Origin: Allohoeflea poritis
Lineage (GTDB): Bacteria > Pseudomonadota > Alphaproteobacteria > Rhizobiales > Rhizobiaceae
DNA length: 64,000 nt
Assembly: GCF_027889715.1 (NCBI RefSeq)
Contig: NZ_JAPJZH010000009.1
Coordinates: forward strand, 1-64,000
Direction of reading: 5' to 3'
Every line of letters starts with the position of its first letter. The first letter of the stretch is position 1. The notes beneath the pieces are model-generated. The model searched no databases, was not told the origin of the DNA, and saw only the letters and a list, made by a program, of their open reading frames with translations. This document shows, one piece after another, positions 2,619 through 6,875 of this stretch. Position numbers and translations under genes: made by a program.

Positions 2619-2800
2619 GGCCATTGCGACCGGCATCGCCTGCCCCTTGCCGAATACGTATCCGGCCGAGCTCGGTCAGAACGCGCGCTTCGCTGCCTGC
2701 GTGCTCCCGGGTCTGACGCTAAGCCGGCGAAACAATTATGCCTCCGGCACGGATGCTGATATACAATGAGAAGAGTTTCACGGCTATTGCAACTTGCCCC

Positions 2801-3955
2801 ATGAACCAAGACATAAGAGATGCGATTCTGCGTATCTACGATACCGTCGCGGACCAAGCCATCTGGTCAGATGTGCTCGACAGACTGGCCGACCGTCTGA
2901 ACGCCAGAGGCTGCCTGATTTTCGAACTCGGTAACGACGGACTTTCGGCGCATCACACATCATCATGGTATGAGGAGACCGCACTCCAGGAATATCTGGA
3001 AACGCATCAGAAGAGCGAGTTGACGGATCACGAAGTTTTCCGCAGACACAGCTTTTCCCACGATTCCGTGGACATCGTTCCAGATAGCGTCCTTTATGAC
3101 GATATTGCCGAATTCACGTCGCGGAAGAATGTCCGGCACGTCATGCGATTCGGCATACTGCATCGCGCGGCCGCCCTGCTGAACAAGGACAATCCATTCG
3201 TCTCGCGATTCTCCGTACAGTTCAGATCCGACAGGAACGGGATTTCCGACAGCGAGCGCGCCTATCTCAACCAGCTTTTGCCGCACATAGCCAAGGCACT
3301 CGACCTCGGACGTCCGGCCTCCGATGTAGCGAGGCAGCACAGCGGCATATTGGCAGCGCTGAACAAACTGACAATTGGCGTGTGTCTGCTGGACCCTCAG
3401 GGAAGGCTCGTTGTCGCAAACGATGAATTCCTTCGCCAGCAGGAGACATATACAGTCTTCGACACTCTGGCGAATGGGCAGCTGGCACTTCGAAACGACC
3501 GGGATCAACAGAGATTCGTGGCTTTGAGGGAAGATGCGCTGAACCACGGAAAATTCGGCGCGCGCCCGCGCAAGGAAGCGATCATGACCGATAATGCCGG
3601 GTTTCTTTGCATCGAAATCGCACCGTTGAACAGGTCTGAGGAAATCGGCTCTCAGCCGTTTGAAGGCTGTATTCTCTACAGTCTGGATACCAGCCTGCCT
3701 CTGCACTTTCATACCCAGCCTCTCAAACAGGCCTACAATCTCACCGAAGCCGAGCTGTCACTGGTTGAAGCCATTGCGGAAGGCCTCACGAACGTGCAGA
3801 TAGCCGAACGCCGGGGACGCGCGGTCGCGACCGTCAATGCACAGGTCAAATCCATACTGTCCAAGACAAATTGTGCCACGCGCACCCAATTCGTTCGGCT
3901 GCTGTCCGGATTCGGTGCGGATTTCACGATCGGTGATTCAGAAAAGAGATATTGA
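2801..3955 (+). CDS. LuxR-family transcriptional regulator
   Basis: DNA-binding regulator of about 384 residues. The C-terminal 60 residues form a LuxR/FixJ-type four-helix HTH (LTEAELSLVEAIAEG, then TNVQIAERRGRAVATVNAQV and a SILSKTNCATRTQFV helix). The long N-terminal part contains a PAS-like central segment around LNKLTIGVCLLDPQGRLVVAND; no autoinducer-binding domain or phosphoacceptor receiver domain is evident, so it is an orphan sensor-regulator rather than a quorum-sensing LuxR. The ATG at 2801 (MNQDIRDAILRIYD) matches where such proteins usually start; ATGs at 2753 and 2738 are in frame. Ligand and targets are unknown. The gene ends five bases before the tRNA-Leu locus, which is on the other strand. 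Confidence 0.8.
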   Translation: MNQDIRDAILRIYDTVADQAIWSDVLDRLADRLNARGCLIFELGNDGLSAHHTSSWYEETALQEYLETHQKSELTDHEVFRRHSFSHDSVDIVPDSVLYDDIAEFTSRKNVRHVMRFGILHRAAALLNKDNPFVSRFSVQFRSDRNGISDSERAYLNQLLPHIAKALDLGRPASDVARQHSGILAALNKLTIGVCLLDPQGRLVVANDEFLRQQETYTVFDTLANGQLALRNDRDQQRFVALREDALNHGKFGARPRKEAIMTDNAGFLCIEIAPLNRSEEIGSQPFEGCILYSLDTSLPLHFHTQPLKQAYNLTEAELSLVEAIAEGLTNVQIAERRGRAVATVNAQVKSILSKTNCATRTQFVRLLSGFGADFTIGDSEKRY

Positions 3956-3960
3956 AGCAA

Positions 3961-4045
3961 TGGTGCGGGCGGAGGGACTTGAACCCCCACGCCTTGCGGC
4001 GCCAGAACCTAAATCTGGTGCGTCTGCCAATTCCGCCACGCCCGC
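3961..4045 (-). tRNA. tRNA-Leu (anticodon UAG)
   Basis: Reading the minus strand gives an 85-nt cloverleaf with a long variable arm. The acceptor stem GCGGGCG pairs with CGCCCGC, the anticodon stem-loop contains TTTAGGT (anticodon UAG), the T-arm has GGTTCAAGTCC, and CCA is encoded at 3963-3961. The variable arm and anticodon identify a leucine tRNA reading CUN codons. Confidence 0.97.
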
Positions 4046-4208
4046 ACGATCCCGGGAACAATCGACAACGGACCGGCCGGGAGCGCGTTTCTATATCACC
4101 GGCATTTCTTGCGTCAAAGCAAAAAACGGGCGGGCCGGTCGTTGGAACAAATCGGCGATTCGTGACGGTTCTTGCATGGCTAGCCATGCAAATTGGACAT
4201 GGCTCCTA

Positions 4209-4250
4209 TGCATATATTGCGCTGCACAATTTTTCTGGAACCCCTATATT
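4209..4250 (+). promoter_or_regulatory. promoter region of first DUF1127 gene with LysR-type box
   Basis: The 22-bp element at 4209-4230 is repeated with one mismatch at 4637-4658, in front of the second DUF1127 gene. Its right part, ATTGCGCTGCACAAT (4216-4230), is an interrupted inverted repeat fitting the LysR-regulator pattern T-N11-A. A TATATT at 4245-4250, 14 bases on, is a plausible -10. VtlR and LsrB, LysR proteins of this order, are known to control DUF1127 genes or alpha-r14 RNAs; that one of them binds here is inferred. Confidence 0.5.
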
Positions 4251-4303: not shown

Positions 4304-4444
4304 ATGAACTTGATGCTTACATACAAGAAATGGCGGAACTACAACCGCACCCGCGAAGCGCTTGAGCGCCTGGGTGATCGCGAACTGGCGGATCTGGGCG
4401 TTACGCGCGACAACATAAACGACATCGCCCGCAAGGCGTTGTAA
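4304..4444 (+). CDS. DUF1127 small protein (first of three)
   Basis: A 46-residue, Arg-rich protein of the DUF1127 (YjiS-like) family: KKWRNYNRTREALERL, then the family core LGDRELADLGVTRDNI. Members are small, basic and usually stress- or phosphate-responsive; in Rhodobacter one (CcaF1) binds RNA and influences RNA turnover. The gene is followed, with no promoter visible between, by three CUCCUCCC-loop hairpins ending in a terminator (4465-4583), so the mRNA should carry a structured 3' region that can be processed to a small RNA. Confidence 0.85.
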   Translation: MNLMLTYKKWRNYNRTREALERLGDRELADLGVTRDNINDIARKAL

Positions 4445-4464
4445 CACGAATACCGAGTTTCGCC

Positions 4465-4583
4465 GGGACATACTCCTCCTCCCAATGTCCCTGCGGATCG
4501 ACTGGCAGCACTCCTCCTCCCAGCTGTCAGTCCACTAAAATGACGCCCGCTGGAACTCCTCCCCCGGCGGGCGTTATTTTTTG
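4465..4583 (+). ncRNA. triple-hairpin CUCCUCCC-loop small RNA (alpha-r14/cuckoo type), copy A
   Basis: Three consecutive hairpins each display an anti-Shine-Dalgarno sequence. Hairpin 1 (4465-4491) has stem GGGACAT/ATGTCCC and loop ACTCCTCCTCCCA. Hairpin 2 (4500-4532) has a 10-bp stem and the identical 13-nt loop. Hairpin 3 (4543-4574) has an 11-bp GC stem with loop AACTCCTCCC, followed by TTATTTTTT, so it doubles as the intrinsic terminator. This is the architecture of alpha-r14 RNAs (NfeR1 of Sinorhizobium) and of the CcsR RNAs that derive from the 3' end of the ccaF1 DUF1127 mRNA in Rhodobacter. Expected role: base pairing to ribosome binding sites of many mRNAs. Processing from the DUF1127 transcript is inferred. 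Confidence 0.75.
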
Positions 4584-4636
4584 TCGAACGGCCTTCCGGT
4601 CTTTCGGCATCCCCCCACAAAAACGCATAGCGCAAT

Positions 4637-4679
4637 TGCATATATTGCACTGCACAATCGGAATGGACGTTCCTATATT
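4637..4679 (+). promoter_or_regulatory. promoter region of second DUF1127 gene with LysR-type box
   Basis: Second copy of the element (4637-4658), differing at one base in 22 from that at 4209-4230. It contains ATTGCACTGCACAAT (T-N11-A type) and is followed, 15 bases later, by TATATT (4674-4679). Conservation of box, spacing and -10 between two otherwise divergent intergenic regions argues that both genes answer to the same activator. Confidence 0.5.
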
Positions 4680-4737
4680 GGGGTCAACGCAATATTGCGG
4701 TGACAACACCGCCCCCACACAGTGAAGGACAAAAAAG

Positions 4738-4881
4738 ATGGTATCTCTGAGACAGTCATTCAACAACTGGCGCCAGTACCGCAACACCTGCAACGAACTG
4801 TACCGCCTGTCTGATCGCGAGCTGAACGATCTCGGTATCGCACGCGGCGATATTCCCTTTGTCGCGCGCCGAGGCAACTGA
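4738..4881 (+). CDS. DUF1127 small protein (second)
   Basis: A 47-residue DUF1127 protein: RQSFNNWRQYRNTCNELYRL followed by the core LSDRELNDLGIARGDI and a short Arg-rich end. GAAGGA lies eleven bases before the ATG. It resembles the first DUF1127 protein in length and core but not in its N-terminus, so the pair is probably an older duplication. Like the first it is followed by a triple CUCCUCCC hairpin (4897-5017). Confidence 0.85.
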   Translation: MVSLRQSFNNWRQYRNTCNELYRLSDRELNDLGIARGDIPFVARRGN

Positions 4882-4896
4882 CGAACAAAACGGTTA

Positions 4897-5017
4897 CCGG
4901 GCCTTTTCTCCTCCCATGGCCCGGACATTAAGGCTGGTTTTCTCCTCCTCCCATATGACTTCCAGCCTTTGATGAAACGCCCGCCGGACCTCCTCCCCCG
5001 GTGGGCGTTTTCTTTTT
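4897..5017 (+). ncRNA. triple-hairpin CUCCUCCC-loop small RNA, copy B
   Basis: Same plan as copy A with different stems. Hairpin 1 (4897-4924): CCGGGCC/GGCCCGG, loop TTTTCTCCTCCCAT. Hairpin 2 (4930-4969): AAGGCTGG/CCAGCCTT, 24-nt loop containing CTCCTCCTCCC. Hairpin 3 (4975-5010): 13-bp stem with one G-U pair, loop ACCTCCTCCC, followed by TCTTTTT, a strong intrinsic terminator. Stem sequences have diverged from copy A while the loops stay nearly fixed, which indicates selection on the exposed anti-Shine-Dalgarno motif. Confidence 0.75.
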
Positions 5018-5050: not shown

Positions 5051-5114
5051 TGCAAAAATTGCATAGCTGCCTTGCTGAAAATCACCTAACTCACCGGCGC
5101 GAAATCGCTAAATA
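5051..5114 (+). promoter_or_regulatory. putative promoter region of third DUF1127 gene
   Basis: Holds the palindrome TGCAAAAATTGCA (5051-5063) and a TAAATA (5109-5114) that could be a -10. The 22-bp element of the other two DUF1127 genes is not conserved here, although TTGCATAGCTGC partly resembles it. Control may therefore differ. Confidence 0.3.
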
Positions 5115-5149: not shown

Positions 5150-5296
5150 ATGAGCATCCTCAAAGGTTACCAGAACTGGCGCAAGTACCGCCGCACCGCC
5201 GATCAGCTTCGCAGCCTGCCGGACAATGTGCTGAGCGATATCGGCGTCGACCGCTACTCCATCGACGAGTATGCACGCAAGGCCTCCAAATACTGA
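5150..5296 (+). CDS. DUF1127 small protein (third)
   Basis: A 48-residue DUF1127 protein (ILKGYQNWRKYRRTADQLRS, core LPDNVLSDIGVDRYSI, then DEYARKASKY). A strong ribosome site (GAGGAAGGAGAG) precedes the ATG. The core is more diverged than in the first two: the usual Asp-Arg-Glu-Leu is replaced by DNVL. It is followed by a long hairpin (5321-5379) instead of CUCCUCCC hairpins. Confidence 0.83.
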   Translation: MSILKGYQNWRKYRRTADQLRSLPDNVLSDIGVDRYSIDEYARKASKY

Positions 5297-5459: not shown

Positions 5460-6875
5460 ATGAAAAAGACCGAAAAAACACTTCACGTCATCGGCGGCGG
5501 CCTTGCCGGCTCCGAAGCCGCCTGGCAAGCGGCCCGCATGGGGATCCCGGTGATCCTCCACGAGATGCGGCCGGTGCGCGGCACCGATGCCCACAAGACC
5601 GACGGCCTTGCCGAACTGGTCTGCTCCAACTCCTTCCGATCCGACGATTTCCAAGCCAACGCCGTCGGCGTCCTGCACCAGGAAATGCGCCTTGCGGATT
5701 CGCTCATCATGGCGAGCGCGGATCGTCACCAGGTGCCGGCCGGCAGCGCGCTTGCCGTCGATCGCGACGGATTTTCGAATGCCGTCACGCAAGTCCTTGA
5801 GGAACACCCGCTCATTACCATCGAACGTGGCGAGATCGCCGCATTGCCGCCGGCGGATTGGCAGCAATCCATCATCGCCACCGGCCCGTTGACAGCGCCC
5901 TCGCTGGCGGAAGCGATCAGAGAGGCGACCGGCGCGGAAGCCCTCGCCTTCTTCGACGCCATCGCACCGATCATCCACTTTGACACCATCGACATGGAAA
6001 CGTGCTGGTTCCAGTCGCGCTACGACAAGGTCGGCCCCGGCGGAAACGGCAAGGACTACATCAACTGCCCGATGGACGAGGCGCAGTACAAAGCCTTTAT
6101 CGATGCGCTGATTGACGGCGAGAAGACCGAGTTCAAGGAATGGGAGGGCACGCCCTATTTCGATGGCTGCCTGCCCATCGAGATCATGGCCGAACGCGGC
6201 CGCGAAACCTTGCGCCACGGGCCGATGAAACCCATGGGCCTGACCAACGCCCATGATCCAAAGGTCAAACCATACGCGGTCGTGCAACTGCGCCAGGACA
6301 ATGCGCTGGGCACACTCTACAACATGGTCGGGTTCCAGACGAAGCTGAAATACGGCGTCCAGAAGGACATCTTCCAGATGATTCCGGGGCTTCAGAATGC
6401 CGAATTCGCGCGCCTCGGCGGCCTGCACCGCAACACCTATATCAACTCGCCGCAGCTGCTCGACGCCTCGCTGCAGCTCAAGGGCCGACCGGGCCTGCGT
6501 TTCGCCGGCCAGATCACCGGCTGCGAGGGCTATGTCGAATCGGCAGCAATCGGCCTGCTGACCGGGCGCTTCGCCGCCAGCGAACTGCTTGGCCATGACA
6601 TAACACTGCCGCCGACGACAACGGCCTTCGGCGCGCTTATCGGTCACATCACAGGCGGTCATCTGTCCGCCGACGAGCCGGGCAAGCGCTCGTTCCAGCC
6701 CATGAATGTCAATTTCGGCCTGTTTCCGCCCGTGGAGATCGTCAAGCCGGAAGGCGTCAAGCGCTTTCGCGGCAAGGAAAAGGCGCGCGCCAAGAAACAT
6801 GCCATCGCTGCACGCGCGCTTGCCGATTGCAGCCGTTGGCTGGGTGTCGAAAATCATACGGCCGCAGCCGAATAG
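5460..6875 (+). CDS. trmFO: methylenetetrahydrofolate-tRNA-(uracil-5-)-methyltransferase TrmFO
   Basis: FAD- and folate-dependent enzyme that makes 5-methyluridine at position 54 of the tRNA T-loop, in the cytoplasm. The 471-residue protein starts with a dinucleotide-binding loop ([15 protein letters not shown]) and contains the Gid-family signatures [12 protein letters not shown] and [13 protein letters not shown], each with a Cys expected to act in methyl transfer, then GFQTKLKYG and the C-terminal FAD segment [18 protein letters not shown]. The ATG at 5460 is preferred because an upstream in-frame start at 5424 adds a non-conserved stretch; no clear ribosome site precedes it. A TTG-started crotonase gene follows after 10 bases, probably co-transcribed. 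Confidence 0.93.

Follow-up and report, generated by a model that had tools for sequence, protein, structure and literature searches.

Short DUF1127 genes accompanied by CcsR-like sRNAs are described as common in alphaproteobacteria, where the arrangement is termed the CIN1 locus (PMC10253847, a 2023 paper citing a 2015 paper on cuckoo RNAs), and the same 2015 paper is also cited for the alpha-r14 (ar14) RNA family (PMC7143759). NfeR1 is reported to be an Hfq-independent RNA of 123 nt with three redundant anti-Shine-Dalgarno (anti-SD) loops, which silences ntrB and two transporter mRNAs, its loops pairing with translation initiation regions, and which is activated by LsrB, with an LsrB site TGCA-N6-GCAT at −72 to −57 (PMC10746234). 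The ccaF1-CcsR RNA is reported to be cut by RNase E (PMC8625941, PMC10253847). Among the roles given for DUF1127 proteins are RNA binding by CcaF1 of Rhodobacter and PhoR binding in Agrobacterium, with RNA binding being disputed, and for atu1667 the available passages of PMC7486931 leave undecided whether a protein or an sRNA is at work.

The window (the whole stretch of 64,000 nt that was analysed) carries three DUF1127 genes in tandem on the + strand, between a tRNA-Leu gene (3961–4045, minus strand) and a gene (5460–6875, + strand) that we take to be trmFO-like, a name assumed by us rather than drawn from a family search, and that served as the anchor for locating the same locus in 80 named genomes. 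ORF A (46 aa, 4304–4444) and ORF B (47 aa, 4738–4881) match Pfam PF06568 at 46.4 and 58.2 bits, against a cut-off of 23.3 bits, and are followed on the same strand by ar14 RNA A (4455–4579; 117 bits, E = 5.2e-21) and ar14 RNA B (4887–5013; 78.5 bits, E = 1.8e-12), which begin 11 and 6 nt past the last base of the respective stop codon. Both RNAs cover positions 1–123 of the 123-position Rfam model RF02344 (gathering cut-off 58.8 bits), and no others were found, either above the cut-off in the window or at E ≤ 0.01 in the whole genome, which has nine DUF1127 matches. ORF C (48 aa, 5150–5296, + strand) also matches PF06568, and the Rfam search of the window found no ar14 behind it. A short DUF1127 ORF thus lies immediately 5′ of each ar14, as in a CIN1 locus. 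The sequence-only reading had proposed an ar14-type triple hairpin attached to a DUF1127 ORF, twice in a row, and a covariance-model search of both segments bears this out; its tandem of two genes has, in fact, a third member without ar14, and its hairpin spans (4465–4583 and 4897–5017) picked the right elements but lie 4–10 nt off the Rfam boundaries. Further upstream, a LuxR-type regulator with a Pfam GerE domain (2738–3955) stands just 5′ of the tRNA-Leu gene. At 71–775 on the minus strand, the ORF list has an ORF that we presume to be Fic/Doc-like from its HPFVDGNKR motif, beside an AbrB-like ORF, and the two are perhaps a toxin-antitoxin pair.

Each RNA folds into three CU-loop hairpins, with the anti-SD motif unpaired in every loop of both the MFE and centroid folds, and the folds are far more stable than expected (z-scores of −8.32 for A and −6.48 for B, with none of 200 shuffles equally stable). 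The third hairpin of either RNA leads into a T-rich stretch; the earlier claims of exactly three hairpins per copy, the last doubling as an intrinsic terminator, hold. The string CTCCTCCC has six copies on the + strand of the window, all inside ar14 A and B, and one on the − strand, while the 13 nt said to be common to two loops of RNA A are indeed identical (ACTCCTCCTCCCA).

The wider family has the same character. In a set of 101 ar14 sequences (two from the window, 76 matches in named loci and 23 from other genomes), 93 have exactly three hairpin loops of at least 5 nt, all with the CU motif, and TCCTCC is fully unpaired in the MFE fold in 291 of 299 occurrences, compared with 424 of 1495 in a control in which the flanks were shuffled and the motif kept. 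The loops are near-invariant across 30 aligned sequences and the stems covary: 29 of the 36 stem pairs show changes on both sides, cells so changed number 201 against 68.2 in shuffles, and covariation reaches 0.510, compared with 0.239 after shuffling and no more than 0.181 if the structure is slid, although this structure derives from the same 30 sequences and hence has an advantage over the slid controls. RNAalifold by itself found the second and third hairpins and missed the first, which was therefore taken from the fold of A and then counted; its cells are paired in 68.1% and 66.7%, as against 89.2% and 98.8% for hairpins 2 and 3, partly because its arms vary in length. Selection on loop exposure and loop conservation in relatives, both anticipated from the letters of the locus, are thereby upheld. 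The ORFs are likewise under purifying selection, with dN/dS values of 0.12 (A), 0.05 (B) and 0.15 (C) against Nitratireductor sp. XY-223, whose TrmFO is the closest (93%) in the set of 80 named loci, and on this codon evidence all three look like genuine genes. Selection acts on the loops, stems and ORFs of both units.

A consensus scan placed sigma-70-like promoters on the + strand before unit A (TGCACA-N16-TATATT, 4223–4250) and unit B (TGCACA-N17-TATATT, 4651–4679). These promoter-like sites lie solely before ORFs A and B, two against a shuffle mean of 0.9, which is weak evidence alone, and the scan found no further site, either in the gaps separating ORF from RNA or on the − strand; its terminator rule covers loops of 3–8 nt, which puts both ar14 terminators beyond its reach. 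The two sites overlap a core, TTGCRCTGCACAA, exact at 4216–4229 (ATTGCGCTGCACAA, overlapping the −35 of unit A and one of three matches in the genome) and at 4644–4657 (ATTGCACTGCACAA, unit B), both on the + strand. With up to two mismatches, the core has 83 matches on the + strand of the DNA 5′ of trmFO (237,302 nt, 54 of 81 loci), of which 74 sit 66–176 nt before a DUF1127 or an ar14, compared with 12 on the opposite strand of that DNA and 8 in a control of 700,802 nt; exact matches number 24 against none in the control, which is mostly coding and has a G+C content of 63.1% versus 60.1% upstream, so composition may explain part of the excess. In relatives the core precedes free ar14 genes as well as DUF1127 genes. 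As a mark of DUF1127 units only, ATTGCRCTGCACAA (three exact copies in the genome and six with one mismatch) was rejected, since the third exact copy (L121, G000:C13:43200–43213) lies about 105 nt before a large ORF of 354 aa. This ORF looks like a deoxyribose-phosphate aldolase gene.

Control of units A and B by LsrB is plausible, on the grounds of a site before A at an NfeR1-like distance, an exact box at gene C and an LsrB-like gene near AbcR. The first is TGCA-N6-ACAT (4187–4200, + strand), at about −70 to −57 from a start site (4257) deduced from the −10 box only; strings of the form TGCA-N7-CAT number eight on the + strand of the window. The second is an exact VtlR/LsrB box, GCAT-N3-TG-N3-T (5061–5073, + strand; box from PMC7486931), one of five in the window on that strand. 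The LsrB-like gene (302 residues aligned at 76% identity) and an AbcR (ar15) match of the same genome are about 5 kb apart, the naming of the former resting on the place of the query beside AbcR in a relative and on the published neighbourhood. A search for a strict VtlR box at A and at B gave nothing above chance: near them the box appears only with two mismatches, and 816 strings with up to two mismatches on the + strand of the window make such boxes uninformative there. A string with one mismatch lies at 4689, 3′ of the −10 box of unit B.

The anatomy of the units, their membership of both families and the conserved promoter core that they have in common with free ar14 genes are seen directly. 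Most probably the locus holds a CIN1-type unit in two tandem copies, each with a dual-product transcript whose 3′ UTR is an anti-SD-mimic RNA. For transcription, LsrB control, processing, target silencing and duplication we infer the following: a single sigma-70 promoter per unit, possibly activated by the LysR regulator LsrB/VtlR, would give one short transcript, to be translated into the DUF1127 mini-protein, with ar14 forming both its 3′ UTR and its terminator; this RNA part would act in place or be cut free, probably by RNase E if ccaF1-CcsR is a guide; its three redundant CUCCUCCC anti-SD-mimic loops would cover the ribosome-binding sites of other mRNAs; and the two units may have arisen by duplication. 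The term “anti-SD sponge”, used in the sequence-only reading, reverses the roles, since the loops are mimics of the anti-SD and NfeR1 pairs with mRNA initiation regions (PMC10746234).

Ar14 was found at E ≤ 0.001 in 32 of 41 genomes from the genus, family and order of the window, a set that includes its own genome. Among the matches listed, at least 29 of 82 ar14 lie within 120 nt behind a DUF1127, 11 lie further behind one (165–921 nt), for 13 the sole DUF1127 is downstream (within 1 kb) and at most 29 have none nearby. A class-wide survey of 289 genomes gave ar14 at E ≤ 0.01 in 26, above the cut-off in the window's own genome alone; of 30 matches outside that genome, the 28 with loci were examined, five having a DUF1127 within 150 nt upstream and two being unplaceable, and many of the weak matches are probably due to chance.

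Gene order could be followed 5′ of trmFO in the 80 named loci, 48 of which have ar14 above the Rfam cut-off (76 matches). Of these 48, 27 have at least one ar14 that is preceded by a DUF1127 match at no more than 70 nt, 20 have only ar14 that lack a preceding DUF1127 but are followed by DUF1127 genes, and in one (L116, Pleomorphomonas) a DUF1127 is followed by other CU-loop hairpins and then ar14. The window and Nitratireductor XY-223 share the order DUF-ar14-DUF-ar14-DUF. Rhizobium albus and Pararhizobium haloflavum have ar14-DUF-ar14-DUF, with or without one more DUF, and ar14(-ar14)-DUF-DUF is found in Sinorhizobium (2/2), Ensifer (2/2), Shinella (one locus) and eight of the 13 loci titled Rhizobium, the remainder being R. 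albus and four without ar14 above the cut-off. The order DUF(-DUF)-ar14 characterises Roseibium/Labrenzia, Aureimonas, one of two Aurantimonas, Brucella, Phyllobacterium and seven of eight Mesorhizobium loci, the second Aurantimonas locus having sub-threshold loops only and the eighth Mesorhizobium locus being incomplete. In most Rhizobiaceae loci the upstream RNA has no ORF and the RNA of the next DUF1127 gene is decayed or missing: in the 23 Rhizobiaceae loci examined, the RNA behind DUF1127-B is complete in R. albus, lacks the third loop motif in P. haloflavum and is reduced to one TCCTCCC hairpin plus terminator in two loci (L066, L070), while Sinorhizobium, Ensifer and Shinella have a plain terminator hairpin in its place. 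Some loci have unusual arrays. In L135 (G005:C26:228067–229061) five ar14 stand in a row with starts some 205–223 nt apart, the first alone being directly behind a DUF1127 ORF, and a sixth lies behind DUF-B. In L084 (Aurantimonas sp. 22II-16-19i, 2093–2862) 18 TCCTCC motifs follow a DUF1127 gene in a rhythm of about 36/40/61 nt, resembling six tandem three-hairpin RNAs, yet without an Rfam match above the cut-off. Two Stappia loci (L095, 1899–2087; L117, 1874–2064) have an Rfam ar9 sRNA 5′ of trmFO, where others have DUF1127/ar14.

The seven same-genus sequences (the window, XY-223, G001 and G003–G006) have the same promoter before unit A, behind which ORF A takes three forms. It is intact in the window, XY-223, G001 and G005. 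In G006 a remnant can still be aligned along almost the whole ORF, and its frame stays open as far as the stop codon. It has no ATG, GTG or TTG start, however, and an in-frame TGA precedes it; the first half, with the conserved WR-YR stretch, has diverged and the second still resembles ORF A, so that either the decay is recent or an unusual start codon may still allow translation. In G003 and G004 the ORF is absent, leaving 74 and 71 nt between the −10 box and ar14, compared with 204 in the window. Since intact, startless and absent ORFs stand under one promoter, a free NfeR1-type RNA can arise by ORF loss, and this within-genus series offers the clearest evidence for such loss, though decay is shown by G006 only and the absence in G003 and G004 could be primitive, the branching within the genus being weakly settled.

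Several other accounts of these RNAs were weighed. One is that ar14 acts in cis alone, its loops pairing with the Shine-Dalgarno sequences of its own transcript, as the physical linkage of ORF and RNA might suggest; but the loops pair poorly with the start regions of A and B (40% and 79%, respectively, of random 35-mers do as well or better), and a comparison of 85 DUF1127 genes from ar14 loci points the same way, making this account very improbable. The median duplex energy was −3.9 kcal/mol for the 30 linked genes, weaker than the −7.4 for 23 genes standing last before trmFO and the −7.0 for 32 others (p = 1.5e-5 and 6.1e-4, kinship being ignored). Linked here means a DUF1127 match within 60 nt of ar14, so that Brucella rhizosphaerae, with its gap of 62 nt, is unlinked in this comparison and linked in the named-loci count, which uses 70 nt; five DUF1127 genes were excluded because no start codon coincides with the profile start, and the “others” include the first genes of Mesorhizobium pairs, which are weak like the linked ones and may share the transcript of ar14. 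Stronger pairing is found in three linked genes, those of XY-223 (A, −10.2), R. albus (−8.9) and Oricola (−8.6). For gene C the start region pairs with the ar14 loops at −18.5 kcal/mol, as strongly as only 1.25% of random 35-mers. The hairpins could alternatively do no more than terminate and stabilise DUF1127 mRNAs, the loop motif having no trans function here, which would agree with the terminator-like sequence of the third hairpin and with the many Rhizobiaceae DUF1127-B genes that keep just a plain terminator. Termination, however, requires neither three hairpins nor a constant loop, whereas the loops are near-invariant in the 30 aligned sequences over covarying stems, and copies with the same loop are retained with no ORF in front, so this explanation also appears improbable, if less so than action in cis alone.

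As to origin, the free form may instead be ancestral, ORF A having entered a free sRNA gene within the Nitratireductor lineage. R. albus and P. haloflavum, which share a 41-row set of a quick TrmFO tree with this genus, also have an ORF-less first ar14, and the change counts on this tree are blind to gain versus loss. The tree has 91 rows, 30 of them unlabelled (no ar14, or none clear), with G001 left out for want of a TrmFO in its stretch. Labels were assigned by hand, L082, L084, L116 and G002 being called linked: the first two have loops behind DUF1127 without an Rfam match above the cut-off, L116 has its Rfam match further on, and G002 has two more ar14 at a contig end without DUF1127 in front. 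Two states (linked or first ar14 ORF-less) need at least four changes and a three-state label five, with none of 200 shuffles as low, and 23 of 24 free-only rows fall inside one 32-row set; the tree is nevertheless weak in places, with 31 of 88 inner branches open, a root support of 15, an outgroup that is not one side of a branch and a tool warning of long branches that meet. Against ORF gain, Roseibium, Aureimonas, Aurantimonas, Oricola, Brucella, Phyllobacterium and Mesorhizobium, all outside the 41-row set, have DUF1127 directly before ar14, G006 holds a remnant of ORF A, and G020, which groups with Oricola, reads DUF-ar14-DUF-DUF; insertion into a free gene is accordingly judged unlikely. 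Loss of the ORF from such a unit is the preferred reading of the free NfeR1-type RNA, and an ORF-less first RNA with a decayed second RNA is what one would expect if a two-function unit had been duplicated and its copies had then undergone complementary loss. The fuller proposal, that free NfeR1-type sRNAs are mRNAs minus their protein, through a duplicated unit split in Rhizobiaceae (one copy keeping the RNA, the other the ORF) and a separate ORF loss in the genus of the window, with poor Shine-Dalgarno sequences sparing RNA carriers from their own loops, stands at about even chances.

A literature search of titles, abstract openings and passages, with the 2015 and 2021 founding papers outside its scope, met no account of ORF loss as the origin of free ar14, and within the same scope no earlier report was found of the genus ORF series, of the split in most Rhizobiaceae or of the weaker pairing of RNA-linked DUF1127 genes. 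If the loss reading is true, an mRNA 3′ UTR has become a stand-alone regulatory RNA, its intermediates survive today at a single conserved locus, and the question of where the symbiosis sRNA NfeR1 came from becomes testable. The weak Shine-Dalgarno sequences of RNA-bearing units provide a simple prediction on how such transcripts could avoid self-silencing.

The DUF1127-ar14 pairing itself is already published as a kind: the union of a rhizobial triple hairpin with a DUF1127 ORF, which the sequence-only reading had presented as new, is described as common under the CIN1 locus (PMC10253847). The suspected common origin of ar14 and CcsR RNAs fared better. In a family (f36) from four genomes (G058, G171, G252 and G321), DUF1127 genes of 70–76 aa are followed by rows of CCTCC loops, unpaired in 8/8, 4/4, 4/6 and 4/5 cases, respectively; ar14 scores are 30–57 bits, all under the cut-off, including 52.9 and 56.9 behind the 72-aa DUF1127 of G058. 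These arrays, which at a guess are Rhodobacter-like, fit a shared family of ar14 and CcsR-like RNAs, as the cuckoo paper reportedly holds. The window also resembles small VtlR-activated DUF1127 genes (Brucella; atu1667 of Agrobacterium), gene C having the exact VtlR box, but in the passages available of PMC7486931 and PMC12595884 these genes are described with no mention of ar14. With ccaF1-CcsR1–4 of Rhodobacter sphaeroides, as with CIN1 and cuckoo loci in general, it shares a small DUF1127 gene followed by same-strand CU-loop RNAs; there, however, four sRNAs follow one 71-aa gene under an RpoHI/RpoHII promoter (PMC10253847), whereas the window has one three-hairpin RNA per 46–47-aa gene, in two units with sigma-70-like sites, and so falls outside the CcsR type of several RNAs behind one DUF1127. 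NfeR1/alpha-r14 of Sinorhizobium meliloti is alike in its three hairpins, its anti-SD loops and the full-length RF02344 match, as well as in the similar distance of an LsrB-like site from the (deduced) start of unit A. It differs in that NfeR1 is reported to have its own promoter (PMC10746234), while the RNAs of the window lie directly behind a DUF1127 ORF.
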